From Buxus sempervirens (taxonomy: Eukaryota; Streptophyta; Magnoliopsida; Buxales; Buxaceae), in assembly GCA_947561395.2 (NCBI GenBank), contig OX387192.1, forward strand, positions 9,646,221 to 9,710,220: 64,000 nucleotides of DNA, read 5' to 3'. A model generated the notes under the pieces. It did not search any database. It was not told the DNA's origin and worked only from the letters and a program-made list of their open reading frames with translations. Position numbers and translations under genes: made by a program. Each line of letters begins with the position of its first letter. Position 1 is the first letter of the stretch. Positions 6,603-28,028 of the stretch are shown here, in pieces.

Positions 6603-6720
6603 CTCTCTGTAGACACCCCAAATTGCACCCCAATATAAGAGATTAACCAAGAAGGGCTCCGAAGGTCTTACTTGAGCCTTGACATGTGTCAAACTTTCAA
6701 AAACTTTCAAAATCAGTGCC

Positions 6721-6987
6721 AACCGCACTGTGTATACGGTTTTCATAATCTCGGTTTCAACCGCTCTGTATGTGCGGTTGCAACCGCACACACAGCACGG
6801 TTCACATCAAGGCTTGTTGCGCTGGCGGCCACGTGGCTTCGCGAAGCTTCGGCCGTTAAGCCGCGTGGACAGCACTCAATTAAAGCATAACTGAATTGAA
6901 CCGCCCTGTATATGCGGTTTGGTCAAATTTGTACATAAACCGCACTTTCAGTGACGGTTGTGTAGAAACCGCACTGTGTATACGGTT
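6721..6987. promoter_or_regulatory. Cluster of six AACCG-N11-CGGTT palindromic sites (5' LTR U3)
   Basis: Units lie at 6721-6741, 6759-6779, 6782-6802, 6899-6919, 6938-6959 and 6967-6987. Five are exactly AACCG, eleven bases, CGGTT; the fifth has a 12-base spacer. The next base inside each arm is often also paired (AACCGC...GCGGTT). The cluster lies about 200 bp upstream of the LTR TATA box, as enhancer sites would. The half-site resembles MYB-type cores, but the binder is unknown. Confidence 0.85.
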
Positions 6988-7188
6988 TTGGCTGTTTCGA
7001 GGCTTTGCGAAATGGCTCGATCTCTGAGCCTTATTTACGCATATTACCTCTCTCTCAAGGACCTAAACTCCCTATTTCACCCTCCGAAACTTGCTGAATT
7101 ACTCCAATTCAAGCCTTGGAGGAGAATTGGAATAATCTAGAAGGCCTTTTTGGCCTACCCTTGTGACTCTTCTACCCTTGACTTGGCC

Positions 7189-7196
7189 TATAAATA
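7189..7196 (+). promoter_or_regulatory. TATA box of the 5' LTR
   Basis: TATAAATA followed by GAGGGGTCC is a textbook plant TATA box. It sits 580 bp into the LTR, which would place the U3/R border near 7220. It is identical in the other LTR. Confidence 0.85.
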
Positions 7197-9028
7197 GAGG
7201 GGTCCTCCTCTTGCAAATGGCTGAGAATTTGAAGCTTGGAAGCTCTGTAAGAAGAGGAGAAACTCTGCTGGATTGCTGCCTCAAGTGTTCAAGCTACCTA
7301 AGGTAAAGTCCTGATTACATTTCCAGCTTCTTCTTTACATTCCAACTCCCAACTTCTACCTTTCTGTAGTGTAAGGCCAATTTGTGGTTGTTTGCAAGCC
7401 CCAAACCCTTTCCAAAGTACCTGGGAATCCTCTCTAGCCCTAAAACGTGAAGAGAGAGCCTTGGGAAAAGGAAGGTGGAATGGATCCTCTAGGCTTAGAA
7501 CCTACAAGTGATGAAGAGCATGCTGTGTGGTTATTTTGAACCTATGGATGTTTATTTTCTGATGTTTTGCACTTGCTCATGGAGAAATATGTGGATCCTT
7601 GCTCTCAGTAGCAAAGGATTCCATCCTTCTCCTAGGGAGTGATTTTCCACATCTTCACACCCACTTTCCACCATTTTTTATCAAAATAGGCTAGATCTTG
7701 GATTTCCATGTAAATATGGAAAATCTGAGATCATTGGCCTTAGAGTGAGTTTTTAGAACTTCATGAGAGGGTTTTTATTGATTTTGAGGTTTTGGTCGAA
7801 TCCACATGCACACATGTACTGGTTTCCTTGTTTCCTCTTCAAAAAACTTCAAAACAGGACAGATCTGTGGCCTGTCTTGGAAGACTCATAACTTCATCCT
7901 CCGGATGAATTTTTGAGTAATTCCAAAGACATGTGATAGATGGATGTGTCTACTTAATATCTGGAAATTTTCGTCCACTTACATGTAGCCATTTTTGGAC
8001 ACCATCTCTTCAAAGTTTGTAAGACAGTTCAGCCCAGATTGTTGAACTTGCCGCTTTGATGGTGCACTATTTGCTCAGTTTTAATCCGTTTCCTATGATT
8101 CCAGTTTCTGAGTTTTCTTTGGGAAGTCTATTTTCATTTCCAATTGGTTTCAGCAGATTTCAATCTGTTTTGTGCCTTGGGTGCTCAATGGACTCAGAGG
8201 TGCTCGCTGGCATAGTCCAGAGCTCATCTGTGGTCTTTTAGGCCTGTTCAAGAGAGCACACAAGTCACATCCGGATAGAGATTGGTGTGAGGTTTTTTTC
8301 TTTGGAAAGATGGCACTACATACCACCTCCATACCAATTTTCATGGATTTTTATTGAGCCAAACTCCACGAATAGAGCTTTGAAAATGCCTACTTAACAC
8401 TTTTTCTGAGTTATAACAGCAGATTTCATATGTGGATTTCTCTCTTGTTTTGGATCGGATTGAGCTGAATTTTCTACTATATACTCTACTATATACCAGT
8501 TTTCCAATGGCTTTGGTTTCATTTGATTTGGATTTGAATTGGGGGAGTTATGGTTTATCAAAGCTTTCAAGTTCTTTTGACCTATTTTCTCCAGATTTGC
8601 CTTGGCTTGATTTTCTTCAATTTTACTTTGATTTTCCTTCACTCATGAGGTTTTAGAAGTGATGAATCCACAAAGAGAGCCTAAGTTCATTATACTTCTC
8701 ATGTGGAATGATCACATACATGGTGCTTGTTGTAAGCATCCTTTTGCCCATTTTGTTAGAAAATAATTCTTAGTATGAGCAAGCATATGGTAACCGTCTT
8801 AGACGGATGAGTGGGGGTGCCTAACACCTTCCTCCGCTCATAAATAATTCCCCGTACCCAATCTCTGGATTTTCCTTGTATTAGAGCTACTTTGGCTCTA
8901 TTTGACATCTATGAACCCTTTGGTGTCCATTCACACCTTAAAATGGATGGTGGCGACTCTTATTTTTATCGATCCCCGCGTGACGATAATCGGAAGTCAT
9001 CCGAGATGACGAATCCATGTCTCACAAC

Positions 9029-9046
9029 TGGCGACTCTGCTGGGGA
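9029..9046 (+). other. Primer binding site (PBS)
   Basis: Two bases after the 5' LTR comes TGGCGACTCTGCTGGGGA. TGG is the complement of a tRNA CCA end and the position is canonical. Ogre/Tat elements are known to use a tRNA-Arg primer; I infer the same here but could not align a tRNA. Confidence 0.85.
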
Positions 9047-10631
9047 CACTCGGAATTGAGCCATGTCTTTTGCTTGCTTATTCTTTGTTTGATTTTATTG
9101 ATTGTTTGTTGTTTGGAGTGATTGTAACAAGCATGCTGATTTGAATGCTTCTATAGTTAGAGAATGTGAGACCTTAGGAAATAGGGCATGAGATGTGTGA
9201 TGCTTTGTTTATGCTCAAAACCATGTTAGGAGACCTAGCTAGTTTTACCATGCTAGGCTACCATGTTTATATGACGAGCATGTTTTGATAAGGATTCTAA
9301 TGTCATTGAACATGTGATCAGGATTTTTAGGGAGATATTTTGAATATGTCAAAAGCATGCTCACCATAATTGAATACTATTTGTTGTATGATATGATAAC
9401 ATGCCTCCATGTTGGCATGATTGTGTGAATGCATATTTAGATGGAGCATGCTAGGCTTTCTTTTATTTAATTGAATGTTCCCATGCTTATTAGCTTCAAA
9501 AATGATCTCTATATCATGCCTTGGTGTGTATGGCTTGCATGGCTGCGAAAAAAGAGTGGCAAGGGTGGGACGTTGTGTTGAATGTGACCCACTTTTTCAA
9601 ATGCACTTGTGCACCTTTTTTCTTTTTTACACAGCCTACCTATCACCTATAGGAAGTTGAACAAGAATGTGGGTAGCTTGGCGCACCGAGGTCGTTACTT
9701 CGGAAAGCGAAAGTGAAAACATTCACCTTAGAGACTTTGAGCCAATGATGTGATGACATGGTGGATCTAGAATTCTGGTCATACACTAGGCTTGAGCTCT
9801 AAGTTGCCAATAAGCCAAAACCCAAAACCCCTACGCGAAGGTGGAGAAACACAATTTTGGCCAAAATAAACCAAATGCGAGGGAGAAAGGGCTTGTAATG
9901 AGGGAAGGCCGTCTTGCATGGCTCAGGTGCCCGAGGTATGATATGGACACCATCTTTGAAGGTAAAAATGAGTAACAAGGTATTTTCAGTTTCTCCTTGT
10001 GATAATCTCCATACTCTGTAAGAATCAGGCTCATGGTGTCCATTTGATTGGGATGTTATTTTCCCAGAAAATTTGTTGTTATCCTAAGATTGGTGTAGCC
10101 CTTAGAGAGAGTTCTTTACTCTTCTTAGGTGTCATTCTACCCAAATGTATATAGGAGGCACCTAAGAGTCCAAAAATCCATGCATTGGGTGTCCATTCTG
10201 GGGAGGGAGCCTAGGCCCTCCTATGTATGAATATTACTAATCCTTTGTTTTGCAGGAAATTTGTGTGTGGAGAACACCCAGGAGCTGCTGGTACAAAGGG
10301 CCTCTTCCTTTTTAGTTTAAAAAATTCTCATTCTCAAGCCCATGGAGGCTAAAATTGTATTTTTATTTTGTTCATGCCCTTGAAGGCCAATTTGTATTGT
10401 AACATGTTTCTTTTATTATAAGAGATCTGTTTGTGCATATTTATGGTCTCCTCATGCACCTTCATGAAATTCATGGTCTAAGCAGGCTCTTAATGCCATT
10501 TTATGTCCCAAATGCCTAATTTGGGGCAGTCTGGAAGCCACCCCATGGTGAATAATGTGTTTGGGCATCTAACTAAGATAATAAAACCAATTGGAAAAAG
10601 GAACAAATCAAAAATCTCATTCTCGGCTAGA

Positions 10632-10718
10632 AACCGTCCTGAGTATGCGGTTGTCTGCATTTTCGCTGCAACCGCATGTTTCATACGGTTTGAGCCAAAC
10701 CGTCCTGAGTGTGCGGTT
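10632..10718. promoter_or_regulatory. Cluster of three palindromic sites in the leader
   Basis: Units AACCG-N11-CGGTT lie at 10632-10652, 10670-10690 and 10698-10718, all with exact arms and spacer. No convincing TATA box lies on either side, unlike the other promoter-linked clusters. Confidence 0.8.
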
Positions 10719-11451
10719 TTAAGCCGAAATCCCATTCTGGCCATACTAATTAAACATTTCTGGGTCCTTTCATCCCTTAGTCATATAAGCAAATGGGCAG
10801 GGGCTCCAAATAAGATAAATGGCATTTGAACCATTCCAAATTCACCCAAATCAAGAAGGTTAAGATCATTTTAGGTAATTTTCACCTAAATTGAACAATT
10901 AGCTTAACTAAAGGGTGCAAATGCTGAAGTAAAACTTGTTTAAAACAGAAACCAAGTCAAGCACCTTAATTTGGGGATTAAGCTCATGTTGGGCACTTTC
11001 TACCTAATTTGAACACTTAATCCCTCTTAAGTGAAGTAAATGGTTTAAAAAGAATTGGTTCAAATAACCAACCTAATCACACTTCAATCTCAAGAATTGA
11101 ACTTGGAAATCACAATAAGTTCCCAAAACATGTTAAGCTTAAAGTATAATACAATTCATGAAAGGAAGCTCAACTCTTTTAAATGGAGCAAATTCCAACC
11201 AAAAATAAGAAATCTTTAGTCATAAAGTATTCAAACTTTTAAGATTTCAACTCATTAGGTCACTAAGAAACCTCTGAATTCCAAGCAAGTGATCAATTAA
11301 GGATTCAATAAAATAAAAAAATAAAAAAAAATTTTTTTTTAAATAAATCACCACCTTAAAGATAAAGTGAGTCTCTTTTTAACTCAAAATACCTAAGGCT
11401 GGAAATCAAAAAATTTTTAGGCATCAAAAAGCCTTGGAATTTCAGAAAATC

Positions 11452-11935
11452 AACTCATAGGACTCCTGGAAGCCTGAAATTCCAGACTTTTTCAAAATCT
11501 TCATAGGCCTTCTAAAGCCTGAATTTAGAAATTCATAGGACTCCTGGAAGCCTGAAATTCCAGACTTTTTCAAAATCTTCATAGGCCTTCTAAAGCCTGA
11601 ATTTAGAAATTCATAGGACTCCTGGAAGCCTGAAATTCCAGACTTTTTCAAAATCTTCATAGGCCTTCTAAAGCCTGAATTTAGAAATTCATAGGACTCC
11701 TGGAAGCCTGAAATTCCAGACTTTTTCAAAATCTTCATAGGCCTTCTAAAGCCTGAATTTAGAAATTCATAGGACTCCTGGAAGCCTAAAATTCCAGACT
11801 TTTTCAAAATCTTCATAGGCCTTCTAAAGCCTGAATTTAGAAACTCATAGGACCCTGGGAGCCTGAAATCCCAGAATTTTTCAAAATCTTCATAGGCCTT
11901 CTAAAGCCTGAATTTAGAAAATCATAGGCCCCTGA
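11452..11935. repeat. 78-bp tandem repeat, about six copies
   Basis: The phrase GACTCCTGGAAGCCTGAAAT recurs at 11461, 11539, 11617 and 11695, and near-identically at 11773, a period of exactly 78 bp. Two more decayed units follow, at about 11851 and 11928. Because 78 is a multiple of three, the minus strand reads open as a 26-residue repeat, which is most simply a by-product of the period. Confidence 0.95.
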
Positions 11936-12261
11936 AAGCCTGCGTAATTTCGGGAGGTTGTGGAAGCCTTAATTCCAAAGCATAAACCCTTGGAAGCTTA
12001 TGTAATTCCAATGCTTGATTTGACTATGGGCTTTTACCATAGCCATATCATTTTTGTGGGACATGTTGGAGGCCCTAGAATACTCCAACAAAATTTCTGA
12101 GGTTTGATCTTTTTCGTATCAATCACCTCGTCTTAATAAGGTTATTTTAACCATAAATACAAAAAGCAAAAAAGAAAAATATATGAATGCAAAGAGAACC
12201 CCAGACTCATGTTCACCAAGCCTACATGCATGCATAGGTGTGTAAAGTTGATTTGATGGGA

Positions 12262-12301
12262 TACTAACATTTTTCTCTTTTGTCTTTTTCCTTTTACTAA
12301 G
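12262..12301 (+). other. 3' splice-site signature upstream of gag
   Basis: TACTAAC (12262-12268), a perfect branch-point consensus, is followed by a long T-rich tract and by ACTAAG ending at 12301. The gag ATG lies 62 bp further on. Ogre elements are known to splice; here this would remove leader sequence. The matching donor was not located. Confidence 0.45.
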
Positions 12302-12362
12302 GTACTAAGTTCCTACTGCAACCATTGCTCCTCGACATTCTCAGAGATTAAAAGCTGCTACC

Positions 12363-15300
12363 ATGAACCCTGCTGAGGAACAATCCACTGTTTCGGCTGA
12401 GGCCTTTGCTCAACTGCAAGAGCAAGTGGCAGGGATGACCAAGCTATTGGAGAATTTGTTGGCCAACCAAGCCGCTCAGGCTCAGGTGCAGGCGCAACAG
12501 GCGCAGGCGCAGGCTCAGGTTCACCAGGCTTCATCATCCCACAATGCACCACCACAGGCTCCACCCCAGACTGAACTTCCACCACCAATCCAACCTATCC
12601 CACCTCAACCTGAACTCTCTCATCCAAACCCCGAGCCTATCCTGATCCGGGAGGAGGAATCTGAATGTGAGAGGGAAAAAGAGAAAGAAAAGGAGAGACT
12701 GAGGGTAGAAGTGGAAAGAAAATTTTTGGACAAACTGGAGTCCATTCAAGAGGAACTGAAAGAAGTGAGGGGGATCAACACGTTGGGTGGTACCAACTTC
12801 CAAGATCTCTGCCTGTACCCCGACGCATGCTTACCGGCCAAATTTAAGTGCCCGGACTTTGAGAAATATGACGGCACTGGATGCCCAATGAGCCATCTGA
12901 AGCTCTACTGTGGGGCGTTATGCCAATTTGGCCGGGATGATGGCATCCTGATCCAGCTGTTCCAGAGAAGCCTAACTGGGGCAGCCTTGAGATGGTTCGC
13001 AACTGTGGACCACGGCAGAATCAGAAGGTGGAAGGACCTAGCTGATGCTTTCCTTGCTCAGTACCGTTTCAATGCAGACATCGTGCCAGATAGGTACGAT
13101 ATGATGAAAATGAGTAAGGGAAGATAAGAGACAGTCAGGCAGTATGCCAAAAGGTGGAGAGAAGCCGCCTCTCAAGTCAGGCCTCCCATGATGGAGCCAG
13201 AGATGGTTACCACCTTCATTGGCACACTGGGGCATCCATTTTACAATCACTTGGTGGGTCAGGTTACCACCAGTTTTGCTGCCCTAGTGTTAATCGCGGA
13301 TCGGATTGAAGATGGAATCAGATCCGGGCGAATCCACGACCATTCTGCCACGACTCGTCAACAGGAGCCAACTTTTGATCCTTCTGCCCAGAAGCAGAAA
13401 AATGGGGCAAGAAGGAATGGAGGAAAGAAAGAAGGGGAAATAAACATGGTACAACCCCAACCACCACAGAAACCCATCCAGATCAATATTGCTGCACCTC
13501 CACCCAGTCCAGTGCAGCCACAATCGACCTATCAAAACCCTCTTAACATTAATGTTCCTCAGGCAGCAATGCCCAACCAAAAAAGGGTATTCTCAAAAGA
13601 GGAGAGAGACACTTGGATGGCGTCCAGAAGGAGCAGGGTCCTTTCCCCTCTTCCTGTGACTCCATCCCAACTTTTGCCATCTTTGTTAAACGCAGGGTAT
13701 GTCACCCTGAAAGAACCAAATCCGAATGCTTCAAAGGGAAAGAATTTCGATCCCTCCACCACCTGTGAATACCATATGGGTGCACCAGGACACCCTACAG
13801 ACAGGTGTTGGCCATTAAAACATGCCATCCAGGATTTGATCGATCAGGGAACCCTGTTGTTTAACACAGCTGCACCCTCTCCCGCCAGGACTGACATTGG
13901 TCAGAATCCTCTGCCCCAGCATAATGGGGCTGGTCCTTCCAATTTTGTAGGGACCATCTCTTCTAGACCTAGGACTTTTGATCCCTCGCAGCTGATTGCG
14001 CCAATAGGGACGTCCGTTAGGGTCTATTTTGACCAGGAAGAGATAGAGGAACAAATCAATGTCATTTCTGGAAATAATGGAAATGGCAAGACCGCAGAGG
14101 ACATTAATGCCTCTCTAAACCGGGCCGCTTCTCTCATGGCCCAGCTTAATGTAGCCAAACCCCCTCTCATTATTAATTGTAACCATGCTGTTGCTTCCCC
14201 ACCTACTCCATCATCCAAACCACCTTTGGTCATTAATTATGACCCCACCACCGCTTCGATTACGTCTGTTTCTTCTCAGACCTTAAAATCCTCTCAACCC
14301 AAGGCACCAAGGCAATCTTCGCCTCTGGTTATTGAGGTGCCTTCTTCTAGCCTTAATCCCACATCAACTCCTGCACCAAGGTCTCATCTCCAACCCTTGG
14401 TATTTAACGTTCCTAAACCCTCCTATTCAGAAACTGCTCTACCTTGGAACTACAGCGAAGGTTATACGACCACTATCCCAGTGGCCGGGAATCAGGGTCA
14501 GGAGGAGGTAAACCTCATGACAAGATCAGGGAGGTGTGTGGAAGGAAAAGAACAAGAAAAGAAGGAGACAGAGCAAGTCCAGAAGGGGAAGGCCAAAATA
14601 GGGGAAGACACCCCTCAGGTCGACAGTAAGGAGGCAGAAGATCTCCTAAAAATACTGAAAAAAAGTGAATTCAATATTGTCGACCAATTAACCAAGGTCC
14701 CTGCCCAGATATCAATACTGGGATTATTGTTTAATTCAGAAAAGCATAGGGACTCATTAATGAAAGTACTCCAGAGCGCCCACGTGCCCAAAACAATTGA
14801 GCCAGACCAGCTCGGCACAATGATCGGCCAGATCCTATCTCACAATGTAATAAGCTTTTCAGAAAGCGAGATAAGCCCTGGTGGAGGTTATCACATGGAC
14901 CCTTTGCACATCGCTGTGCTCTGTAAGGGTAGCATGATAGCCAGGGTCCTAATTGACAATGGGTCAGCCCTAAACATCTGCCCCCTTGTAACTTTTGTGA
15001 GGCTTGGTCTGGACCAATCCAAGATAAGGCAGAACGGGAGGATTGTGAGAGCTTTCGATAGCTCCAAAACACACTCCCTGGGAGAGATTGAACTACCAAT
15101 TACCATCGGACCGAATATCTTTAATATCACATTCGAAGTAATAGATATTCCTGCTGCCTTCAATCTACTTCTGGGAAGGCCGTGGATCCACTCAGCTAGG
15201 GCTATACCCTCTACTCTTCATCAAAGAGTAAAATTTATAAAAGGCCAGAGGGTGATAACGGTCCTAGCCAAGAGTCTAGTCCCTCCCGTCATACCACCTG

Positions 15301-16142
15301 ACGTACCTTTCATTAATGTAGAATTAACGGCAGACAAAATTGCCTTTCACTCTTTTCAGTTTGAGATAGTCAACTTCATACCTGGGGGGTGTCTAAAAAA
15401 TGAGAAGTTGACATGCGCCAATAAGATGGTGGAGAAGGTCTTAAAGGATTGCAATTTCCACCCAGGGAAGGGGTTGGGAATTAACCTGCAAGGAAGGGTG
15501 ACACCCATAGAGGCACGGAGGCTAGTCCCACGAGTAGGACTAGGGATGAAAATGAGAAGATGGAAGAGGGGACCACAGAAAGAAAATGAGAGGGAAAAGA
15601 ATCAAGGAAAGTTCCCTCATTTAAGGGAAACTTTCCCGAAGCCCTCTCATACCATTCAATTGGCTCCTCCTACAGATTCCTCCAAGCCTCCGTATTTCAA
15701 TGACAACCCTTTTAGAAAACCTTTTACCTCAACCCTTCAACCTTTTATCCCCCTCTCATCCACTTTGGCGCCCAAAGCCACGGGTGAGCCTGAGCCACTG
15801 CCACAAGAGCAGCAGGATTTCACAGAGGAGACAGGGGCATTCTTTGCAATGACAGAGAATGAAGGAAGAAAGAAAGCAGAAGAAGAGGTTCCTTTTATCG
15901 ACTGGGCCTCAATCAAGATTCCTGATGAAGTCACCTCTGAACTCAGCCCCGAAGCAGAAAAGGGCAGTTTTTCAAATCCGGTAATGATGGTATCGGATCA
16001 AGAGTTTGAGGAAGAACAGGTTTGCACTATACCACCTGTTCCAGAGGGCTTTGTATTGAAAAATTGGGAAGAGACCCCTTTGACGTTTGAGGCTGCATAT
16101 GGTTGGCAATCAGCTGCGGCCTCCAAAAAAAAACTCCATTAG
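12363..16142 (+). pseudogene. Retrotransposon gag-protease, broken by one in-frame stop
   Basis: The frame encodes the capsid polyprotein and the aspartic protease that matures it. It starts at the ATG at 12363 with a Gln/Ala- and Pro-rich N-terminus, then a Glu/Lys-rich coiled coil, then a retrotransposon gag domain (LRWFATVD, FLAQYRFNADIVPDRYDMM, and QYAKRWREAA after the break). An in-frame TAA at 13125-13127 interrupts the gag domain; the same frame resumes at once and runs to the TAG at 16140-16142. Counting from the ATG at 13188, a zinc-knuckle-like CEYHMGAPGHPTDRC lies near residue 192, the protease motif VLIDNGSALNICP around residue 590 (DNG for the usual DTG/DSG) and a G-patch-like block (GKGLGINLQGRV) near residues 748-786. 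The frame ends just after a run of nine A (16125-16133), where pol overlaps in the -1 frame. As it stands it cannot make full-length Gag without readthrough. Confidence 0.9.
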
Positions 16143-19100
16143 TGGATTGCCCTTTTCCTGAAGGTTTTAATGAACCTTCATCTTCAGGAAAAGCCTCTCT
16201 AGATGGTTCTCAAAAAACCCAAAAAGATTTTTCAATTTTTTCTAGAAAATCTAAAGCTTTCAAAATGGTCCAGACTGCTTATGAGCCATATATACAGACT
16301 GAATTAGAGCAAGTTGAATACGACTTCGACCTCGAGCTCGACTTCGACCTAATGGGGATCGAAGAGGAGATCGAGGCCGAAGACGATGACCTTCCAAGAG
16401 AAATATCATATCAATTGGAACGTCACGAAAAGGGTATTCAACCTAATATTGAAGAAACCATTTCCACAAACCTGGGAACCGAAGAGGACCCAAAAATTGT
16501 AAAGATTGGTGCATGCTTGTCTGGAATGCAGCGGAGGGAAATGTCCCAATTCTTGGCTGATTACAAGGACGTGTTTGCGTGGTCTTATCGGGATATGCCA
16601 GGGTTGGATACAGACATGGTTGTACACAGGCTGCCAATCCTGCCAGGAGTAAAGCCTATTAAGCAGAAATTGAGAAGGTTGAAACCAGAATGGACTTTGA
16701 AAGTCAAAGATGAAGTGGTAAAGTAGTTTCAAGCCGGGTTTTTGGCGGTGTCCACATACCCAGATTGGCTAGCCAATATAGTCCCAGTTCCAAAGAAGGA
16801 TGGAAAAGTCAGGATGTGTGTGGATTACAGAGACTTGAACAAAGCAAGCCCGAAGGATGATTTTCCATTGCCACACATCGACATCTTGGTTGATAATACG
16901 GCAGTGCACAGCTTGTTCTCTTTTATGGATGGCTTTTCCGGATACAAACAAATCAAAATGGCAAAGGAGGATCAAGAGAAAACCGCTTTCATTACTCCTT
17001 GGGGAACCTTTCACTACACAGTCATGCCTTTCGGATTAAAGAATGCCGGGGCAACATATCAGCGAGCCATGACAGCCCTTTTTCATGATATGATCCACAA
17101 ATAGATGGAAGTCTATGTGGATGATATGATTGCCAAATCATGTGAAGAGGAAGACCACTTGATCAATCTAAAGAGGGTATTTGACCGTCTAAGGAAGTAC
17201 AGCTTAAGACTTAATCCAGCAAAGTGTGTCTTTGGAGCCACATCAGGGAAATTGTTAGGCTTCATTGTAAGCAGAAGAGGGATTGAGATAGACCCGTCTA
17301 AAGCAAAAGCAATCATTGAAATGCCATCTCCTAAGACTGAAAAAGAAGTTAGGGGTTTTTTAGGAAGAATTCAGTATATCAGCCGGTTCATAGCACAACT
17401 CACTGCTATTTGCGAGCCGATCTTTAAGCTTCTAAGGAAGAATAACCCAACTATATGGAATGAGGATTGCCAGCAAGCATTCAACAAAATAAAAGATTAT
17501 CTGTTAAATCCACCTGTTCTAGTACCACCAATCCCAGGGAAACCACTGATTCTGTATCTATCAGTTCTAGAAACATCAATGGGATGCGTATTGGGGCAGC
17601 ATGATGAAACAGGCAGAAAAGAAAAGGCTATCTACTATTTGAGCAAGAAGTTTACGGATTATGAGACAAGATATTCGTCTTTGGAAAAGACTTGCTGCGC
17701 TTTGGTCTGGGCGACTCAAAGGCTTAGGCACTATTTCTTAAGCTATTCCACTTTGCTGATCTCAAGGATGGATCCGCTAAAGTATCTGTTTGAGAAGCCG
17801 GCTTTAACTGGTAGAACAGCGAAGTGGCAGCTATTGCTTTCAGAATTCGACCTGACATATGTCACTCAGAAAGCAATCAAAGGTCAGGCAATTGCTGATC
17901 ATCTAGCTGAGCATCCATTGCCAGATTATCAACCCCTCAAAACGAATTTCCCTGATGAGGCTATCTTATTTGCTGAAGAGGAAGAAAGTGAAGACTCCTG
18001 GCAGATGTTCTTTGATGGGGCTGCAAATATGAATGGAAATGGGATCGGCGCAGTATTAGTAAAGCCAGATGGTTCACATATCCCAATCGCAGTGAAATTG
18101 AGGTTTCAGTGCACGAACAACATAGCAGAATATGAGGCATGTATAATCGGATTACAAGCTGCTCTGGACCATGATGTTCAAGAACTTGACGTATATGGAG
18201 ATTCGAGTCTTATCATCTTCCAAACAACTGGGGAATGGAAAACCAAAGATCATAAATTGATCCCATATCACCAATATTTGGAAGAAATAAGTACCAAATT
18301 TACTCGAATTTCTTTTAGCTATATGCCAAGGGCTAAGAATCAGTTTGCGGATGCTTTGGCGACATTGGCCTCAATGGTTAGTATTCCAGAAGGGGTAGAC
18401 ATACAACCACTTGAAATTGAAGTCAGAGACGAGCCAGCTTACTGTCTTGTTTTGGAAGAAGCACAAGAAACAGAAATACCATGGTTCCAAGATATCAAGA
18501 ATTTCTTGGATAATCGAAATTTTCCAGAAAGCGCTAGTCCCACTGAAAAAAGAACAATACAGAAGTTAGCAGGACAGTTCCTTCTAAGTGGTGGGCAGTT
18601 ATATAAAAGATCTTACAATAATGTTCTACTCAGATGCGTCACCAAGGTTGAAGCAGAAAGGTTGATTGAAACAGTGCACGGGGGAGTCTGTGGGCCGCAT
18701 ATGAATGGACACATGCTCGCGAGGAAAATATTGAGATTGGGATATTATTGGTCTACAATGGAGCACGATTGTTGCCTACATGTTAAGAGATGCCATTTGT
18801 GCCAAGTATACGCTGACAATAAGCATGCACCACCCAGTGAGCTGCACAGCATGACCTCTCCATGGCCTTTCTCTATGTGGGGTATTGATGTAATTGGGAT
18901 GATTTCTCCTAAAGCGTCAAATGGACACCGGTTCATTCTGGTGGCAATTGATTACTTCACAAAATGGGTTGAAGCTACTTCGTATGCAAATATCACAGGA
19001 AACCATGTTCTTAAGTTTCTGAAGCACAACATAATTTGTCGCTATGGGTTGCCAAAAGCCATAGTTTCAGACAATGCTTCAAATATTAAGAACAAGGATA

Positions 19101-19729
19101 TGAAGAAGATGTGTGAGCAGTTCCAGATAACTCATCACAAATCAGCCCCTTACAGGCCAAAGATGAATGGAGCAGTAGAAGCGGCAAATAAGAATATAAA
19201 GAAAATAATCCAGAAGATGGTGGTAAGCTATAGAGATTGGCACGAGATGTTGCCATTTGCTCTCCATGCTTACAGAACCTCGATCCGAACTTCTACTGGG
19301 GCAACGCCGTATTCCTTGGTTTATGGAACAGAGGCCGTCTTACCTGTTGAGGTAGAAATCCCTTCATTAAGAGTGCTTATGGAAACAGAGCTTGAAGAGG
19401 TTGAATGGGTTCAGTCTAGATATGAACAACTTAATTTGATAGAAGAAAAGCGGTTGAATGCGCTTTGCCATGGTCAACTGTATCAGAGGAGAATGGCCAG
19501 AGCCTACAACAAGAAAGTGAAGCCCAGAGCTTTCCAAGTGGGTAATCTAGTCTTAAAGAAAATATTACCATTTCTGGAAGACCCTCGTGGAAAGTTTAAG
19601 CCAAATTGGGAGGGACCTTATGTAGTGAAGAAGGTCTTGTCAGGAGGCGCTCTTATCTTGACAGAAATGGATGGGGCAGATTTTCCTGAGCCAATCAACT
19701 CCGATGCGGTCAAACAATATTTCCCTTGA
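16103..19729 (+). pseudogene. Retrotransposon pol (RT, two RNase H, integrase), two in-frame stops
   Basis: This encodes the enzymes that copy and integrate the element. The frame is -1 relative to gag-pro and overlaps it at A9. Reverse transcriptase runs from about 16560 to 17330 with VPVPKKDGKVRMCVDYRDLN, FMDGFSGYKQI, MPFGLKNAGATYQ and the catalytic YVDD just after 17105. In-frame TAG codons at 16724-16726 and 17102-17104 cut the RT, the second only a few codons before YVDD. In the last open part (17105-19729, 874 codons) follow a degenerate native RNase H, a second RNase H (FFDGAANMNGNGIGAVL; 18000-18360), an integrase zinc finger (CHLCQ), and the integrase core with D595, D656 and E692, giving the D-35-E spacing. 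There is no chromodomain; the protein ends soon after. The dual RNase H is typical of Tat elements. Confidence 0.93.
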
Positions 19730-20781
19730 AGGAATATCACAAAGAAATGATCCGAGGCCATTTTTCTTCATCCCTCACAAATTTTAATATCCCTAGATTA
19801 AACCAAGTTGAGCCTGTTCGTGTTTTAAAGAACCCAAACTGGAGCTTACAGTCGCGACTGGGGCAGGGTTAATAGAAAAACAAAAAGGGAAATAGCAAAG
19901 AAAGGCCAAAAGAAAAAAAAAGAAGGCCAATATTGGGAATGGGGGGTCGCATCCATTATGACTGTAAGCCCAGTTATCCCATTTTAAAGATGTTAAAATT
20001 TTGAGCCTATAATAACCTTTTTTTTCATAAACTCAACCCAGCCTTCATTTCGTCCTATCGATCAAGTCCTCGGTGATCTGGGTATATTCCTTCAAGTTCG
20101 GGAGGTTGAAAGGGCAATGACGGAATAAATAAGCCGGTCCTAGTGAAAACCGTAACAGGCACTAGGGGCAATATTGGCAGAAAGAAGGCGAAAGAAAAAA
20201 AAGAAGAAGAAGAAAGAATAAAAGAAAAGAAAGAAACAAGGAAAAGGTCACCAACCGCACTTGGGATACAGTTTGAACTAAACCGCCCTTTTTCTACGGT
20301 TTTGGCAGAAGGGCTATGCAACCGCATATTGAAGACGGTTTTGGCTAAACCGTTCTGAATGCGCGGTTTTATGCAGCAGAATTGAATTGAACAGATTTTC
20401 TGCACAGGACTGAACCAGTAGGCTGGGGCAGGCCCCCTGGAAGTGGGAAAGAAACTTGGGGATGAGTCTAAGGGTTCCAAGGGGGACGGATTGGCTTCTT
20501 CCTCATTAACTGAAATACCTTTTTTGCCCAACTTACTTCAATTCATCCAACTATATGGGATTAAAGCATCATGGACCAATTTACAATAAAAACACACAAA
20601 AATGAAAATTATATTTTGGCCGATGATGAGAAATCAGTGACTTTTCATTAAAACTGTCAGTTTTTACAAGCATATGAGAGTTCTGAGGCCAATAGTATAA
20701 AAACCTATTTTGTATTCTCTATCCTTCCACTAGTGGAGTTTCTCTTTGTACAGAAGCATAAAAAAAATACAATAAAAGGGG
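19730..20781. other. Spacer between pol and the antisense genes
   Basis: About 1 kb without a supported gene. It contains purine-rich stretches (about 19880-19930 and 20160-20250) and four palindromic sites. It would be the 3' UTR of the downstream antisense gene and of pol, so the two transcripts could overlap here. Confidence 0.6.
20253..20368. promoter_or_regulatory. Cluster of four palindromic sites after pol
   Basis: Units lie at 20253-20273 (right arm CAGTT, one mismatch), 20281-20301, 20320-20340 and 20348-20368. The three others have exact AACCG-N11-CGGTT form. No clear TATA box is adjacent on either strand. Confidence 0.8.
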
Positions 20782-22436
20782 CTAATCTCTATCCCCTAGC
20801 CTTTCCTCAAGCTCCCTGATCCGAGCCGCCTGAACCGCCACAAGCCTTTCAGCCCCCTCTGCATCTGGGTCACTGAGGAATGAGATGACGTCATCTGAGA
20901 GGGTCTGCCTGGTCCTCATATCTCTGAGCCTGGCCATGGTTTCATCATGCCGGCGCCATGCAGCTCTCACCTCAAAGCGACGGGCCTGTATCTGCTCTGA
21001 TAACCGTCTCTCCAAATCTTCCTTCTCCAATCTCAAGGTTCGGGCCTCCTCCACCCATATGAGCTGAAGCCGCCTATGAGAAGCCCGCTCGGTCTCCAAG
21101 AGGTCCTCATAGGTAGGACACGGTATAGCAGGAGGATCCACCGGTACAGAAGCGCAGCTCTGCACCTGCTCTCTAATCCAGAAGATATAGTCCTTCTCAT
21201 GCAATTTGGAGAAGACAAGACCTCTCAAGAAGCAAGCCTGCGACCACTCCTTCAATAACCGGAAGCATAGGCCCATGGTGGCTGGTGTAAGGGGACCTAT
21301 GAGCTCTTCATATCCCTGAGGTACCAGGATCCCCTGCACCTCCTCTCCAAACTGCCGGATGACCCTCAAAGGCAAGTAGAGCAAGGCAGACTTCAATCCC
21401 ATGAGCACAGCGAAGTTTTGGTCAGAGAAGCTGATCACTGTCTCGACGGAGGGCTGGTAAGCACCAGGCCATCTCACCTGGTCGTCCTGAAGAGTCCCCA
21501 AGAAAGCAAACCATCCCTGTTTGCCGCCATGTATATTGGGACACCCCCTGTTGCTCATCAAAACAGGAACGTCCAATCTGGGGAAGACGCGCCGGGTTAT
21601 CTCTTCAACCTGACTCAGGTGGTCAAGTAACCAGAGCTGCACAAAACAGGGAAGCATTTCCAACCTTAGAAAATTTCAACTTGGCAATAAAGATTACAAT
21701 TCAAAGAAAGAGGTTCAGATTTTACCTGAAGTATAGGGGCGTAGGCAAGGAAACTTTTCTGTTTCCTGTGATAGCAGTCAGTCAAGGCCTGGTATATTTC
21801 AGCCAGGATCATAGGGGCAAGCCTTTCGCGCTCCCTAACTTGACAGATGACTAAAATGAGGGATAAATCAACCTCGCTATCACCTCGGGGGAATAAAAGT
21901 TGATTGACCACTATCAAGGTCAGAGCATTGAACCGGGCCGACTGGTTGGAGCTATTTAACAGCTTCTCAGTCAAAAATGACTTGGATAGGGTCAATAGGG
22001 CGTCGGCTTCCCCTAACTCTTTCTTGTTAATCCCTAAAAAGGTGGAGGCTTCCTTTTTAAAGCTCGGTTTGAGAGGTGGGTTAACTACTTTCTTGGAAAA
22101 GCTAAGGTTGAGGATGGTTTCAACCTCCTCGACTGTAGGGGTCATCTCTTTTTCCCCAAACCTGAAGATGTTCAATTGAGGCTCCCAATGCCCAATTAGT
22201 ACCTCTATGATTTCCCATTTTAGAGGAATCTTTGGGATTGAGAGGAGGTGGCCTAGATTGGCAGAGGCCCAATCCATCTCATCTTGAGGGGTCATTGAGG
22301 AAACCCACCTCTCATAAAATGTATCTACAATGGCATACCTAGTCAAATTAGGAGGTTTGGACCTAATTTTTGGTCTAGGTGCGGGTATTTCAGGTACGGA
22401 AGATGAAGGAGGCGCAGAAGCTGAACCAGAAGCCAT
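20782..22436 (-). CDS. Antisense gene B: PMD/DUF7745-like protein, two exons
   Basis: Transcribed against gag-pol. Exon 1 runs 22436 to 21726 (237 codons from ATG, MASGSASAPP) and ends CAG before GTAAAA, phase 0. Exon 2 runs 21636 to 20782, after a good acceptor (pyrimidine-rich tract then TTTTGTGCAG), giving 284 codons and a stop, 521 residues in all. The start has an Ala/Ser/Pro-rich tail; then comes a globular region with WEIIEVLIGHWEPQLNIFRF and TVEEVETILNL, and LWLLDHL just after the splice junction, which I recognise from plant DUF7745 / plant-mobile-domain-like proteins of retroelements. The last 130 residues are charged and coiled-coil-like. Function is unknown. A TATA-like box and four palindromic sites lie directly upstream. 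The frame is fully open, unlike pol. The exon model is by eye; an acceptor nearer 21665 would put the exon out of frame. Confidence 0.75.
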
Positions 22437-22545
22437 TAACGGGCAAAAGTGGATTAAAGGCAGCTAGGAGAGAGAAAATCGCCGAAAAAGAGGGTTTCTG
22501 ACCTAAGCAATACGTCAAAATGACGTCCTGCCCGCAATTCGCGGC

Positions 22546-22555
22546 TTTAAAATAA
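22546..22555 (-). promoter_or_regulatory. TATA-like box of antisense gene B
   Basis: On the minus strand the sequence reads TTATTTTAAA. It lies 13 bp downstream of the nearest palindromic site (ends at 22568) and 110 bp upstream of the gene B ATG. A TGACGT-type inverted pair lies at about 22512-22526 between it and the ATG. Confidence 0.45.
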
Positions 22556-22567
22556 CCTAAGGGCAAA

Positions 22568-22685
22568 AACCGCATACACAGAACGGTTATGCCTGAACCG
22601 CACTTAATATGCGGTTGCATTCCCGCAAGGTTTAAAAACCGCGGAATAAGTACGGTTCTTGTACAACCGCCCTGAATGTACGGTT
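22568..22685. promoter_or_regulatory. Cluster of four palindromic sites upstream of antisense gene B
   Basis: Units with exact AACCG-N11-CGGTT lie at 22568-22588, 22596-22616, 22637-22657 and 22665-22685. They fill the 480-bp gap between antisense genes A and B and end just upstream of the TATA-like box of gene B. Confidence 0.85.
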
Positions 22686-22915
22686 TTTGCACAAAAAGGG
22701 GTTTTACTTCTTCCTTTTAATAAGTCGTGTTCCCCAGAAAATCTGTTACCTGTATAACAATTGTAACATGACAAACATACAAAAATAAGCAAAAAAAATC
22801 TACAAAAAAGAAACAAAACCAAAAAATCTTCTCTTTTCATATAAACTGCCAATGAATACATCAAGTTTATATACAAATGTCAGATAAATCCTAATCTAGA
22901 CCTATCTCTAACAGG

Positions 22916-25761
22916 TCAATCCCTATCGCCTCTACCTCGCCGTCGCTGCCGGATGAAGAAGTGGTCGGAAAAGCGTTGGCTAGCGGGAGAAGAAGGCTCA
23001 CCAAGCAAGGATGGACCAACAGGAGGCACCGGGTCTGCAGGAGGCGCAGGATCGGTAGAAGAGGCTGAGGCCGGAGCTGGATCCTCCTGGGTCAGGTCCA
23101 TGAAGCAGGAAACTGAAGTGTCCGTCGCCAAAGGGACCAGCTCTAGAACCCGAGAGTCCTCCGCAGAAGGAGATGGATCTACGGTACCAGCTACGCCGGG
23201 AACATCCTCCTCTCTCGTAGGCTCGGCCGCCTCTGGCTCAGCTACACCAGGAACATCCTCCTCTCTCGCAGGCTCGACCGCCTCATGAACCGCGGGAACC
23301 TCCAAGTCACCCTCCGCTGGCTCAGGAGCAGTCTCTGGCTCAGATGCAGGAGCGGTCTCAGATACAGGTGCAGCCTCAGGCATCTCGGCTGACTCAGGAA
23401 CTACACCAACAGAGGTAGCCTCGGCCGCCACCTCAGTCTCTCTCTCAGGAATCTCCACAGCTCCTAAAGAGAAGGACCAAGTGCGAGAACTGGATGGTGA
23501 AGGCACCGCATCCTCCTGGAAGACAAAGACAGACTGATCAGAAACAGGAAAGATAAAGAAAAAAATATATATATACAAGAAACTGAAGAAGACAGACCTG
23601 AGCTCCTAAAGGCCCCGCCTGGCCCTGGGCACTGGCCAACTGGGCCCGCAAGTCGGCAATGAGAGCGGCCTGCCCCGTAATGATGACATCGCTCTCAGCA
23701 ATGGCGGCGTCTCTCTCAGCCAGCTGGCGCTCCAGATCCGCATATCGAGCCCGGACCTCCTCTAGCTGTGCCTCCTGAAATAAGATAAGAAGAGAAAAGA
23801 TATCAGTAAATAAGAAAGAAAGACTAGAAGAATTTACAAGAAAAGGAGGTTCATACCGTGGTGTCATAGAGGCGGATCACTACCCCTTCTATCTCAGTAA
23901 CTCCACCTCGAACGGGCATGGGCTGCATCAGACAACCCACTGAGACCTGCCCGAACCAGGTATCATAATCACTATCGACTAAAAGGCCATCTCCTGCCTC
24001 CCACTCGCCGAAGTGGGCAGGGTCGAATGTACCAGGAGGGATGAAAGGGGCTGTGGCTGGAGGAGCCGCTGGGATCCGGGGCTCACCAGTATGCTGGAAG
24101 AAGAAGCGCTCCCCGAGGTACCATATACTGCCCAACTGCCCAATAAAGAATGGGTACCTCTGGCGTCGCTGATCCAGGGCAAAAGCGGCATCCACAAAAG
24201 GCTGAAAAGCCAACTCGTCATGCAGGCCGTCCAGACGGGGAACAGATAGCTGAGGGTAAACAAAGAAGAATATCAGAATCTGATAAAAAGGAGAAAAGGA
24301 AATGAAGAAAAGAGAGACGGGGAAAGTGCTTACCTCTCTCCTGAAGGTCCTGTCCAGGTGAGCCCTGGCCGACCTAGGGCGACTCTTCTCTGAGTCACGC
24401 CTAATCTGATTCCACCGACGGGCCAAGGGAAATGTCCCCTCAGACAAGGTGGAGGTAGGGCGAAAGTGGGCCACATAGACCTGAGCAAAGAACTGAAAAG
24501 AAAAAAAAAAGAAGAGAAGAGAAGAAGAAAAAAATAACAAAAGAAAAAAGAAAAAAGAGGTTAAGCAGAAAAAAGAAGAGAGAAAAAGAAAAAAAAAGAG
24601 AGAAAAGTAAGGAAAGGAAGAAGAAAAGAATTTATACCTGCAGAAAGGGCCAGAAAAATCTGCAACCCACTCCGGCTCCCCTGGGAGAGGACAGGCCGGA
24701 AACTACCCGCCAAAGCCCCGCTAGCAAGGTGCCATAAACCAACTGGCCCCAGGCATAGTCCCTCGCTCGGTGCAGATCACGGAGAAGACTCAAGAAATGA
24801 GGGCTGACTGAAGTAGTATCCTCCAAGCAGAAGCAGGAGCCCATCATCAGAAGAAAAAGAAATCTGAAAGCTATCGGGAAACTGGGATGCTCCGCTGCTA
24901 AGGTACTGAATCCCCTCTCTATAAATGCCTCCCTCAACCATGTCCGGGAAATACGAGTGATCCTACTCCGATCCCACGCCTCCACGGGCATCTCGTCATA
25001 TCCCAACAGCTCAGCAATCTCCAAGTCCGCCGGCCGATCCATCTCAGTGATGACATCTCCAGTCATCCTGATCCCGGTAATGAGAGCGAAGTTGGAGGGT
25101 CGAATGCCTATCTCCACATCAGGCAGATGGAAGCTCAGGGTCTCCAGGAAAAAGCGCTCCAACAATGCTAAGATCAAGGGCCGATCCTGACGGACGCCGG
25201 TGATAATAATGAAAGGGCCAAATCCAAAACGGCCCATCTCTCGGCGCAGAGAGGACGAGCAAGCCCCTACTACATCAGCAAAAAGGGCCCAGCTCCCTCG
25301 GAAATGGGAAGAAGGATATCTAAGAGGGATGTCTGCCCTAACGCCTGCCGAAGGATGCGTCGTCAAACTGTGAAGAAGAGAGGTGTCCCGGATCTGATCT
25401 GATATCTCTGCAGGAATGGCGACACGAGTCGCCCGGGCCCCTGCCCTACCTCTATGACGGGCTCCCCTACGCTCACAAACCTCACCAGCAGGCTAGAAAG
25501 GCGAATAAAAAGGGTTTAAGTTGAATGTGATAAAAGAAAGGCCGGATATTAAAAAGGGAAAGGGAATACCTCTGGGATCGACTCCAGCGAATCCCCAGAT
25601 GCCCCAGAATCTGAATCTGAAAGCTCCAGACCACTGGGAGAAGAAGGCTCAGGGTCCGGCTCGGCCCTAGAAGAAGATGCCACATCGGCCGGATCCCTCC
25701 GAACCCTCGAAGAGGAAGGCTCATCCGCGGGACCCCGAGAAGCGCGACGTGTACGGGCCAT
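22916..25761 (-). CDS. Antisense gene A: plant mobile domain (PMD)-like protein, six exons
   Basis: Six exons on the minus strand: 25761-25570, 25492-24638, 24492-24334, 24249-23857, 23774-23598 and 23515-22916. Every intron is GT-AG, short (about 77-150 bp) and phase 0, and the joined frame is open for about 791 codons. Exon 1 is Arg/Ser/Asp-rich. Exon 2 carries the recognisable block: FHLPDVEIGIRPSNFALITG, then SCFCLEDTTSVSPHFLSLLR and YAWGQLVYGTLLAGLWR, which matches my memory of the plant mobile domain (host relatives MAIN and MAIL1, involved in transposon silencing). Exon 5 is a heptad-like coiled coil (LEEVRARYADLERQLAERDA). Exon 6 is a Pro/Glu/Ala-rich tail ending in a basic RQRRRGRGDRD, possibly nuclear-targeting. 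The acceptor CCCTGTAG abuts the ATG, implying a 5'-UTR intron. Antisense PMD genes in Tat elements are known; the biochemical role is not. Confidence 0.8.
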
Positions 25762-27186
25762 CTACAGGGACAATTACAGGGAGAAATTTATTATGTTTCA
25801 TTGGAAGTTATTTTATTTGCTTTTCGCGTTTCAGTTGATTTTACTATTCTTTAGATTAATCAATTCTACGTGGATTGCAGAAAAAGAAAATCGGAAGAGA
25901 CACTCCAGAAAGTGCCCGGCTGAACCAGGATCTGATTCTTTTTAGCCTCTATCAATTTCTTTATTATTTCTGTTATACATAAGAATTATATATAAGAAAC
26001 AAAATTTCCTATATATCCTTCTTATAAACAAAAAAGGAGAAAGAAAGAAAGATTTTTGAAACAAGCTATCCAAAATTTTCAATTTTTCTGATAAGTTTAA
26101 ATGGCTGTTCTAAAATCCCTAAAGTGTCCAACTTTATTCTACTTTCAGGCTTACTCAAAGCAGGATCACCATAGCAGGAGCTGTCTATACCTATACATAC
26201 TAGAGATGTTGGATGAAGTTTTAAAGCACAAGAACAAATGCTCAAATTTAGTACAGTTGAACACAACGGTTCGACATAACTAAGGCAAGCCTACAGGTTT
26301 TCAATCCAAGAAAAAATCAGGCATTGATTTGCATTGACTACAGATCGGAATAGGCCTAGAAGCATGAATAAGGGTAAATTGCATGCTAAATGAGATCGAG
26401 TCGGCTAAGAGTTGTTTCAGGCATACAAAAGCATGTTCTTCGTAACAGGGTAAGCATGTCAAGTGTTATGTTGCTGCAGAAAAGAAGTCCTCAGGTTGAT
26501 GAAAAGCGAATATTCAACAAAAGGGTAATACTCAAAATTGAACAAACAGAAGTATAGCAATCAAGAAAGAAACAAGCATAGGGAAATAAGGTTTCAGTTA
26601 AAGACAAAGCAGCACAAGCCAAGTTCTAATACAAACTGATTCAAGAAATGGGCAAGTATAAGGTTTGGGGATTTTGTTCGGTCAGAAGCAAATCTGAAAT
26701 CAAGAGTTCAGTTCAATCAATAACCAGAGTCAAAATCATGCTGGGAACAAACTCTTTCAAGTAGCAAACACATGCACAGATTTTCGGATCAAATATTCTC
26801 AAATGTGTTCGGCCACTTACTTGTTCAGGTCGACAAGAGAAGACTGGACAGTGTTTGTCTCACCAGAGCTTCGAAAGCAAATAAAATTGCCACCAACGAG
26901 GATGGAAGGAGATCTGAGTGTGGCAGAAATGTGAAAGCGAAGAATCACAGGCGGCAATGAGTGAGCTTTGGATGGAAGACGCCCGTTGCAACAGTTCGCC
27001 GGAGAAAACAGAGTTCACCGGAAAGGGCAGAAACCGCCGGAGAGCAGAGAGTCTTGCCGGAGGAGGTGTCTTCGTCGGAGAAGAAGAAGGAAGAAGACCG
27101 GAGGGAAACCACGGTCGCCAGAGAGAACGCAAGGGTTCGGGGGAGTCAAGGGTTTTGCGAGCAAAGTGAAGCCAGTCGCGGTCGCG
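25762..27186 (-). other. Presumed 5' UTR and leader intron of antisense gene A
   Basis: No coding frame with similarity is seen. Read on the minus strand, about 27150-26930 is rich in CTTC and TCTCCGGCG, like a plant 5' UTR. The acceptor CCCTGTAG lies immediately before the ATG at 25761. The donor was not fixed, so the UTR-intron model is inferred. Confidence 0.45.
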
Positions 27187-27192
27187 TTTATA
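27187..27192 (-). promoter_or_regulatory. TATA box of antisense gene A
   Basis: On the minus strand GCATATAAACGCG contains TATAAA. It lies 12 bp downstream of the nearest palindromic site (27205-27225), and CT-rich UTR-like sequence follows at the expected start distance (near 27160). Confidence 0.55.
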
Positions 27193-27204
27193 TGCAACCT
27201 AGAA

Positions 27205-27303
27205 AACCGCACACATAGAGCGGTTGGTATTAATATTGTCGAAAACCGCACATACAGCACGGTTGAAATTGAAAATGCTAAAAACTGCATGTTCAGTACG
27301 GTT
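27205..27303. promoter_or_regulatory. Cluster of three palindromic sites upstream of antisense gene A
   Basis: Units lie at 27205-27225, 27244-27264 and 27283-27303; the last has AACTG for AACCG in the left arm. The cluster ends just upstream of the minus-strand TATA box at 27187. Confidence 0.8.
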
Positions 27304-27634
27304 GGCACCCAAAAATGAATTTTCAAAACTTTTTCAATCTCTTTCAAAGGATCTGTGTCCAGGGCAGTTGTGAATTGCAAGAAGAACCATCCTATCAACT
27401 TTTGCTTTTAAAATTTGCTCAAATCTCACTTCATAGCCACGAGTACTCTGTGAGAGGCGAGGAGAGGTTTTGACCCTTAAGGTTAGGGACTTTTCATCAA
27501 ATCCTTTAAACAAATTCTTTTTTTTCAAAAAACCATATTGGAGTTCTTGCAGCTCATAATCAAATGGACACGATCCTGAGAGGTGCAATTTGCGGGTCTT
27601 TTGCTCTCCGCTGTCAATTGATTCCAATCCCAGC

Positions 27635-27648
27635 GAAGAGGGGGCAGT
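27635..27648 (+). other. Polypurine tract (PPT)
   Basis: GAAGAGGGGGCAGT directly precedes the TG of the 3' LTR, the canonical position for plus-strand priming. Confidence 0.85.
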
Positions 27649-27761
27649 TGTAGACACCCCAAATTGCACCCCAATATAAGAGATTAACCAAGAAGGGCTC
27701 CGAAGGTCTTACTTGAGCCTTGACATGTGTCAAACTTTCAAAAACTTTCAAAATCAGTGCC

Positions 27762-28028
27762 AACCGCACTGTGTATACGGTTTTCATAATCTCGGTTTCA
27801 ACCGCTCTGTATGTGCGGTTGCAACCGCACACACAGCACGGTTCACATCAAGGCTTATTGCGCTGGCGGCCACGTGGCTTCGCGAAGCTTCGGCCGTTAA
27901 GCCGCGTGGACAGCACTCAATTAAAGCATAACTGAATTGAACCGCCCTGTATATGCGGTTTAGTCAAATTTGTACATAAACCGCACTTTCAGTGACGGTT
28001 GTGTAGAAACCGCACTGTGTATACGGTT
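27762..28028. promoter_or_regulatory. Cluster of six palindromic sites (3' LTR U3)
   Basis: These are the 3' LTR copies of the 6721-6987 cluster, at 27762, 27800, 27823, 27940, 27979 and 28008. All arms are intact; the LTR substitutions I noted fall outside the arms. Confidence 0.85.

Follow-up and report, generated by a model that had tools for sequence, protein, structure and literature searches.

Promoter-proximal palindromic sites with family-specific arms suggest a self-encoded operator network in Ogre-like retrotransposons of Buxus sempervirens

The VANC proteins of Arabidopsis VANDAL elements, which are Mutator-like DNA transposons, are the closest working analogue of the system described here, in which a palindromic site, AACCG-N11-CGGTT, recurs through an Ogre-like long terminal repeat (LTR) retrotransposon of 23.5 kb at positions 6608-30067 of a 64,000-nucleotide stretch of Buxus sempervirens DNA (contig OX387192.1; hereafter the window). 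VANDAL elements carry a short motif of 9 bases, in one orientation and in tandem repeats, in their own non-coding regions; its recognition by VANC, with binding and demethylation, has been demonstrated, and so has the co-evolution of the transposon protein and its motifs, related families having different motifs that changed together (PMC5735166; here and below, statements on published systems refer to the parts of the cited papers that were available to us). The Buxus element likewise has a repeated, family-specific motif in non-coding regions. It is, however, an LTR retrotransposon, with LTRs, reverse transcriptase and integrase, rather than a Mutator-like DNA transposon; its motif is a gapped dyad gathered in discrete clusters near promoters, and its reader is a proposed one.

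Among retrotransposons, elements of the Ogre clade (Tat, Ty3/gypsy) have a second RNase H (aRH) between RNase H and integrase, and 57% of them have an extra open reading frame (ORF) for a plant-mobile-domain (PMD) protein (PMC6317226). An aRH in this position, which fits Retand as well, and a PMD ORF in both antisense genes are found in the Buxus element and point to its placement in the Ogre clade (OTA, Tat). The available parts of that paper describe no network of cis sites and give no function for the extra ORF. Retand elements resemble the present one in having antisense genes between pol and the 3' LTR, which their author proposed as possible DNA-binding regulators (PMC11963269, Vicient 2025), but these ORFs encode TRP28 and not PMD, and no binding site is described in the portion seen. 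Maize Grande carries an antisense gene that is stated to have a promoter of its own, for which the accessible text names no site (Vicient 2020, PMC7264820). MAIN and MAIL1 are PMD proteins tied to a short promoter motif, but they are products of host genes and not of an element (PMC7156037, PMC9899485). We found no description of sites such as those reported here in the abstracts and passages searched, which came mainly from open-access journals.

The sites and the features beside which they lie are as follows (window coordinates).

6608-9026, plus strand: 5' LTR, 2419 bp, 99.46% identical to the 3' LTR, with TG...CA ends
6721-6987: U3 cluster of six sites at 6721, 6759, 6782, 6899, 6938 (N12) and 6967; the LTR TATA box follows about 200-470 bp downstream
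7189-7195, plus strand: LTR TATA box TATAAAT, read from the sequence
10632-10718: leader cluster of three sites at 10632, 10670 and 10698
20253-20368: cluster of four sites between pol and gene A, at 20253 (one mismatch), 20281, 20320 and 20348
20785-22463, minus strand: antisense gene A, a PMD/DUF7745 protein read as two exons, separated by a short intron near 21.67 kb, with an ATG at about 22436; PF24924 and PF10536 in its first part
about 22546-22555: TATA-like stretch of gene A, our own reading of the sequence
22568-22685: gene A promoter cluster of four sites at 22568, 22596, 22637 and 22665, between about 130 and 250 bp before the ATG, with about 12 bp from the TATA-like stretch to the closest site
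22919-25492, minus strand: antisense gene B, a PMD protein in several pieces; PF10536 in 24635-25492
27187-27194, minus strand: TATA box of gene B, CATATAAA, our own reading, about 10 bp from the nearest site
27205-27303: gene B promoter cluster of three sites at 27205, 27244 and 27283 (one mismatch)
27649-30067, plus strand: 3' LTR, with six sites at 27762-28028

A rescan of the window, with spacers of 10-12 bases and at most one arm mismatch, returned the count and layout given in the initial annotation, namely 26 sites with six in each LTR and 3, 4, 4 and 3 in internal clusters. Twenty-two of them are exact, two have an N12 spacer (at the same position in both LTRs) and two have one arm mismatch (20253 and 27283), and the earlier statement that none lies outside the element holds for exact sites within the window. 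Two extra near-sites, each with N12 and one mismatch, at 18912 in pol and at 44246 outside the element, are taken as background. First-order Markov sequences derived from the window gave no match in 40 runs, compared with the 22 exact N11 sites observed. The shorter pattern CCG-N11-CGG occurs 24 times, 22 of which are these sites, the remaining two (23736 and 27096) being also inside the element and none outside it; this convergent CCG...CGG distance of 14 stands against 1-9 occurrences at each other distance from 3 to 30.

The pattern is abundant in the genome as a whole. In this single genome of 676.5 Mb, for which pattern searches give total counts and list places for the first matches, AACCG-N11-CGGTT has 19,195 exact copies, compared with 1,428 for the same arms with N12 and 184 with N10, the last about 100 times rarer; the reversed pattern, a weak control since it is without CpG, has 1,691. 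With 293 bp of U3 as the query, 40 full-length copies of 95-100% identity were obtained among the 40 scored of 1,738 candidates. We examined 20 stretches (18 on C1 around listed sites and two at the window ends) and four short loci. At 20 loci drawn from the first listed sites, which are not a genome-wide sample, 33 of 48 exact sites have a neighbor site within 60 bp; 11 of the other 15 lie in stretches matching the window LTR, two (L007 and L018) in a repeat common to both loci and two (L005) in neither. The U3 sites are in register in all eight other aligned LTR copies, several with decayed arms and one site in L020 with a 4-base insertion, and the N12 site is intact in six of the eight. The LTR TATA box reads CCTATAAATA in five of these eight copies, is altered in L011 and L012 and was not seen in L020.

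A relaxed dyad scan led to two further families, F2 and F3, and one element of each was read through both antisense promoters. The sites are thus not confined to one retrotransposon, as had first been supposed, but belong to a group that extends over the genome and comprises at least three arm classes, class 1 being that of the window family (F1). The F2 pattern is ATCCGG-N9-CCGGAT (class 2), with steps of 38-39 bp and 32,622 copies genome-wide compared with 36 for the reversed pattern; the F3 pattern is GnCCGTA-N7-TACGGnC (class 3), with steps of 27-28 bp, and its form GCCCGTA-N7-TACGGGC has 11,266 copies compared with 0 for the control. Both sister families retain the 21-bp geometry and the homologous places while the symmetric arms differ, and in the element read from each, the LTR and both antisense promoters have one arm class. 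The F2 element, on C1 at about 3409-3430 kb and read as two stretches (L016 and L027), has four sites in the 5' LTR, four in the leader, four upstream of gene A, two upstream of gene B and four in the 3' LTR, 17 of the 18 being class 2. Its LTR places are deduced from the recurrence of the same four sites 20.4 kb apart, and the leader cluster lies in a region matching the window leader (L013, L015 and L016). All ten symmetric sites of its 3' half, whether they precede gene A, precede gene B or lie in U3, are ATCCGG; L027 also holds one asymmetric CCG-N11-CGG in coding sequence. The F3 element (L048) has four class 3 sites in U3, a placement deduced from matches to other loci, three and one decayed site upstream of gene B, and four and one decayed site upstream of gene A. 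Its three clusters hold 11 CCG-N11-CGG, with left arms GnCCGT in 11/11 and right arms CGGnC in 9/11, and two more, asymmetric, lie elsewhere in the locus.

This concerted switch bears directly on the identity of the reader. Sites for host factors in LTRs are a known kind of thing, and the CGGTTR of the class 1 arm fits the plant MYB core CNGTTR, so that a host MYB-like or other dimeric factor could drive the LTR and both antisense promoters, families having switched between host factors; a site class that tracks the element tree would also be expected from descent alone. Such an explanation would need at least three specificities with one dimer geometry. Because all sites of a family switch arms jointly and keep their geometry and places, we rate a host factor, including the MYB reader first suggested for these sites, as unlikely, and the simplest account is a reader whose specificity changes with the element.

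We then turn to the arms themselves, aligned in eight rows for class 1 (six loci picked by their protein and not by their sites, together with the window and L014). Mean pairwise identity is.951 in the arms,.811 in the spacer and.848 in the flank, and none of 120 mask shifts reaches the observed value. CpGs are kept rather than decayed in a ratio of 57:5 in arms and 37:26 elsewhere (Fisher p 2e-5, a rough value since the aligned rows are related). Class 1 arms are thus more conserved than their neighbors, and this, with the better retention of arm CpGs, argues for a protein-binding dyad over plain duplication. That the sites are functionless relics of tandem duplication and homogenization would fit the regular steps, 12 of the 14 below 60 bp (one LTR plus interior) being of 28-29 bp (six) or 38-39 bp (six), with one of 23 and one of 41; these two lengths differ by about one helical turn, which is a tendency and not a rule. 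It would also fit a shared spacer bias: the left arm is followed by C or T, and the right arm preceded by A or G, in 19/19 N11 sites (one LTR plus interior) and in 76/80 exact sites across loci. The spacer, described at first as simply varying, is therefore not random, being biased at its ends and, in class 1 sites, less self-complementary than shuffled at its center. However, the arms are retained while spacers differ, class 1 arm CpGs decay less than other CpGs, gene conversion that replaced arms yet not spacers is implausible, and, of the five kinds of cluster, three lie at promoters; we regard an origin by duplication without function as highly improbable.

A second possibility raised for the dyads is that an RNA or DNA hairpin, serving for example in RNA packaging or processing, is the conserved unit. 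When single units were folded, four of five did better than shuffles (z -2.7 to -4.1), and the class 2 and class 3 units formed 7-bp stems (-8.7 and -10.4 kcal/mol); in class 3 the spacer pairs 6/16 (0.83 vs 0.73), 7/15 (0.81 vs 0.67) and 10/12 (0.47 vs 0.33) are complementary above shuffled. In class 1, however, none of the five spacer pairs exceeds its shuffled value (0.47/0.50, 0.36/0.45, 0.38/0.44, 0.06/0.42 and 0.06/0.28, observed/shuffled), the two innermost falling far below, and one of three class 1 units is no more stable than its shuffles (z -0.12). Moreover, the genomic RNA would have the U3 sites, which precede the TATA box, at its 3' end and not at its 5' end, and a symmetric protein dimer yields the same covariation of arms. 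On account of the class 1 pair test we consider the hairpin very unlikely.

If a protein reads the sites, the element offers the two antisense proteins as candidates besides gag-pol. Genes A and B are under purifying selection: compared with the diverged copy L014, the ratio of nonsynonymous to synonymous substitution rates is 0.15 and 0.13 in the two parts of gene A, and 0.12 in the first piece and 0.16-0.27 in later pieces of gene B, of which the L014 copy has a stop. In order to relate proteins to site class, 20 DUF7745 loci were chosen from 118 scored matches for variety in frame length and match span, blind to sites. Fourteen have a cluster at a fixed distance, six of class 1 and eight of class 3, L036 (class 1) having one intact dyad and L044 (class 3) two; at the class 1 loci the gene A promoter cluster occupies the same place as in the window. 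The other six (L028, L029, L031, L034, L035 and L038) show no CCG dyad cluster upstream of the gene. On a tree of 23 PMD-A exon 1 rows (these 20 loci with the window, L014 and L027, the last being the one class 2 row), the four site labels, no-site included, need three changes, which is the minimum. Class 3 has support of 93/96, and the no-site group, whose PMD-A proteins are 30-36% identical to that of the window, forms a separate clade with 100/100.

Sequence identities between the families point to gene B rather than gene A. F2 is 89% identical to the window in the C-terminal part of pol, 75% and 61% in parts of gene A and 52% in a piece of gene B. Gene A (A1) is 81% identical between F2 and F3 and 72-74% between F2 and F1, the identity of F1 to either lying at 72-76%; gene B (B1) of F2 is 50-52% identical to both F1 and F3, which are 71% (window) or 66% (L014) identical to each other. 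The family with the most different site is thus also the one with the most diverged PMD-B, and for this reason, on three families only, we prefer gene B as the reader.

Other PMD-bearing repeats were encountered in the same genome. One repeat family (L025, 2173-7217) has two single-frame PMD genes in tandem, of 575 and 590 amino acids, and similar pairs recur; GATACAAG-type tandem repeats lie upstream in L025, and half-sites upstream of its first gene are somewhat dense but unordered. At another locus with a large-frame PMD (L026) no exact N11 site was found. In L031 and its kin, short CAGATGAAAGA repeats, noted by eye, stand upstream of the DUF7745 gene in several copies and may be a separate repeated motif that belongs to another PMD family.

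Taken together, we think it probable that the sites are the retrotransposon's own operator network, read by an element-encoded factor, most likely one of the antisense PMD proteins, which had been named early on as possible binders and which the evidence favors, short of proof. Bound as a symmetric dimer to the nnCCG-N11-CGGnn dyads of the LTR U3, of the leader and of the two antisense promoters, a PMD protein, B being a better candidate than A, would regulate transcription of the genomic RNA and also its own production, probably by activation or anti-silencing. The specificity of the protein and the cis sites of its family would change together and give each family a private address. The sign of the effect could also be the opposite, with the element protein acting as a repressor for copy-number control that binds U3 as copies accumulate and represses A and B. 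Some 10-12 bp separate the TATA stretches of B and A from the sites closest to them, and a dimer bound there could stand in the way of assembly. On the other side, VANC, the closest known system by analogy, is anti-silencing (PMC5735166), and 25 of the 26 common genes that lose expression in Arabidopsis mutants of the host PMD genes MAIN and MAIL1 carry the DOWN motif (PMC7156037). Repression is a reading that we doubt but take seriously, and it overlaps in part with the operator network just set out, since both have an element protein at the same sites.

The DOWN motif offers a further comparison. Its instance at MORC1 is CATGCAGTTT (PMC9899485), and the decayed left arm of the gene B promoter site at 27283-27303, read outward, is CATGCAGTTT as well. 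Six of 38 half-sites in the window match it at 8/10 or better, compared with 0.055% of window 10-mers, a post hoc comparison in which the shared CNGTT core makes up half of the match. The motif is present in 12.46% of all genes in Arabidopsis and shows no enrichment in the pp7l-2 set, and direct binding by PMD proteins was left open by the authors (PMC7156037). We treat the resemblance as a lead that is less striking than its figures suggest. Gypsy-encoded PMDs form their own clades adjoining genic PMD clades (PMC5418596). It is possible, and we put it forward tentatively, that PMDs are sequence-specific DNA readers, that those of Ogre families act as family-private master regulators of promoter dyads, protein and sites shifting specificity in concert, and that MAIN and MAIL1 are domesticated or sister versions reading a related half-site (DOWN), so that the host silencing pathway and the element regulator would share one recognition code.

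Several observations weigh against a PMD-read operator network. The function of PMD is stated as undetermined in the available parts of PMC5418596, and structure prediction gave no help, the AlphaFold models being poor (mean pLDDT 58.5 and 40.7) and a Foldseek search with the better one returning 33 matches at E<=10 and none at 0.001. Class 3 arms (eight rows) have a mean identity of.954, with.867 in the spacer and.842 in the flank, but the observed conservation is also reached by 11 of 120 mask shifts, the best at -28, over a further decayed dyad, and CpGs kept and decayed number 62:2 in arms and 55:5 elsewhere, no real difference. Site numbers and steps vary between families; the F2 leaders (L013, L015 and L016) retain one AACCGG-N9-CCGGTT beside three ATCCGG dyads, in 39-bp steps, and no CCG-N11-CGG was found in F2 (L027) at the homologous place between pol and A. 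Class 1 monophyly on the PMD-A tree has a support of only 71/73, and given this value and the single element read from each of F2 and F3, sites and genes that simply descended together could account for the link between class and protein. Finally, no exact N11 site was found in the two-PMD family of L025, so that a PMD does not imply these sites.

The remaining features of the element and the window are listed here.

6603-6607 and 30068-30072: target-site duplication CTCTC at the element ends
12309-16142, plus strand: gag and the stretch up to pol, with an in-frame stop at 13125-13127; Retrotrans_gag and G-patch
16727-19729, plus strand: pol, with reverse transcriptase, RNase H, second RNase H (aRH) and integrase, and an in-frame stop at 17102-17104 inside the reverse transcriptase

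In pol, RVT_1, RT_RNaseH, RVT_3/RNase_H and rve follow in this order, all above cut-off, with Integrase_H2C2 just below; within 17105-19726 the domains are RT_RNaseH 144-248, RVT_3 303-421, RNase_H 299-420, Integrase_H2C2 514-569 and rve 588-685. Retrotrans_gag falls just below its cut-off (23.9 vs 24.1 bits), while G-patch is above, as is PF10536 in both antisense genes, which lie between pol and the 3' LTR. The sense frame is interrupted by stops (13125-13127, 16724-16726 and 17102-17104) and shifts near 16.1 kb, so that the window copy may not be autonomous, although an intron could explain some of these interruptions; the reading frames of the antisense PMD genes, on the other hand, look intact. 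The two frames of gene A are read as two exons because L050 has a single frame across the intron-like stretch. The leader of the element contains a 78-bp tandem repeat of 6.3 copies (11455-11942). Outside the element, the window has a 22-bp tandem array of about 75 copies (42605-44260) and two PPR-DYW genes of 635 and 641 amino acids (32358-34262 and 59752-61674, both on the minus strand) in a 95%-identical duplicated stretch, the copies of which are about 27.4 kb apart. ARAGORN, and Rfam at gathering thresholds, found nothing in the window. A protein search with gene A exon 1 gave 969 candidates, none of them at E 0.001, and sequence searches of the PDB gave one chance-level match (E 0.65) and otherwise none.

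The finding bears on the role of antisense extra genes in giant plant retrotransposons and on that of PMD itself. A site of fixed geometry with family-specific arms allows a direct and falsifiable test of which element protein binds which arms, and the natural specificities, of which there are three, would offer a first set from which to learn how PMD reads DNA. The three exact patterns total 63,083 places in one genome, some of which could affect host genes. Should the proposed operator network prove true, LTR retrotransposons would resemble some DNA transposons in having a transcription network of their own whose specificity co-evolves.

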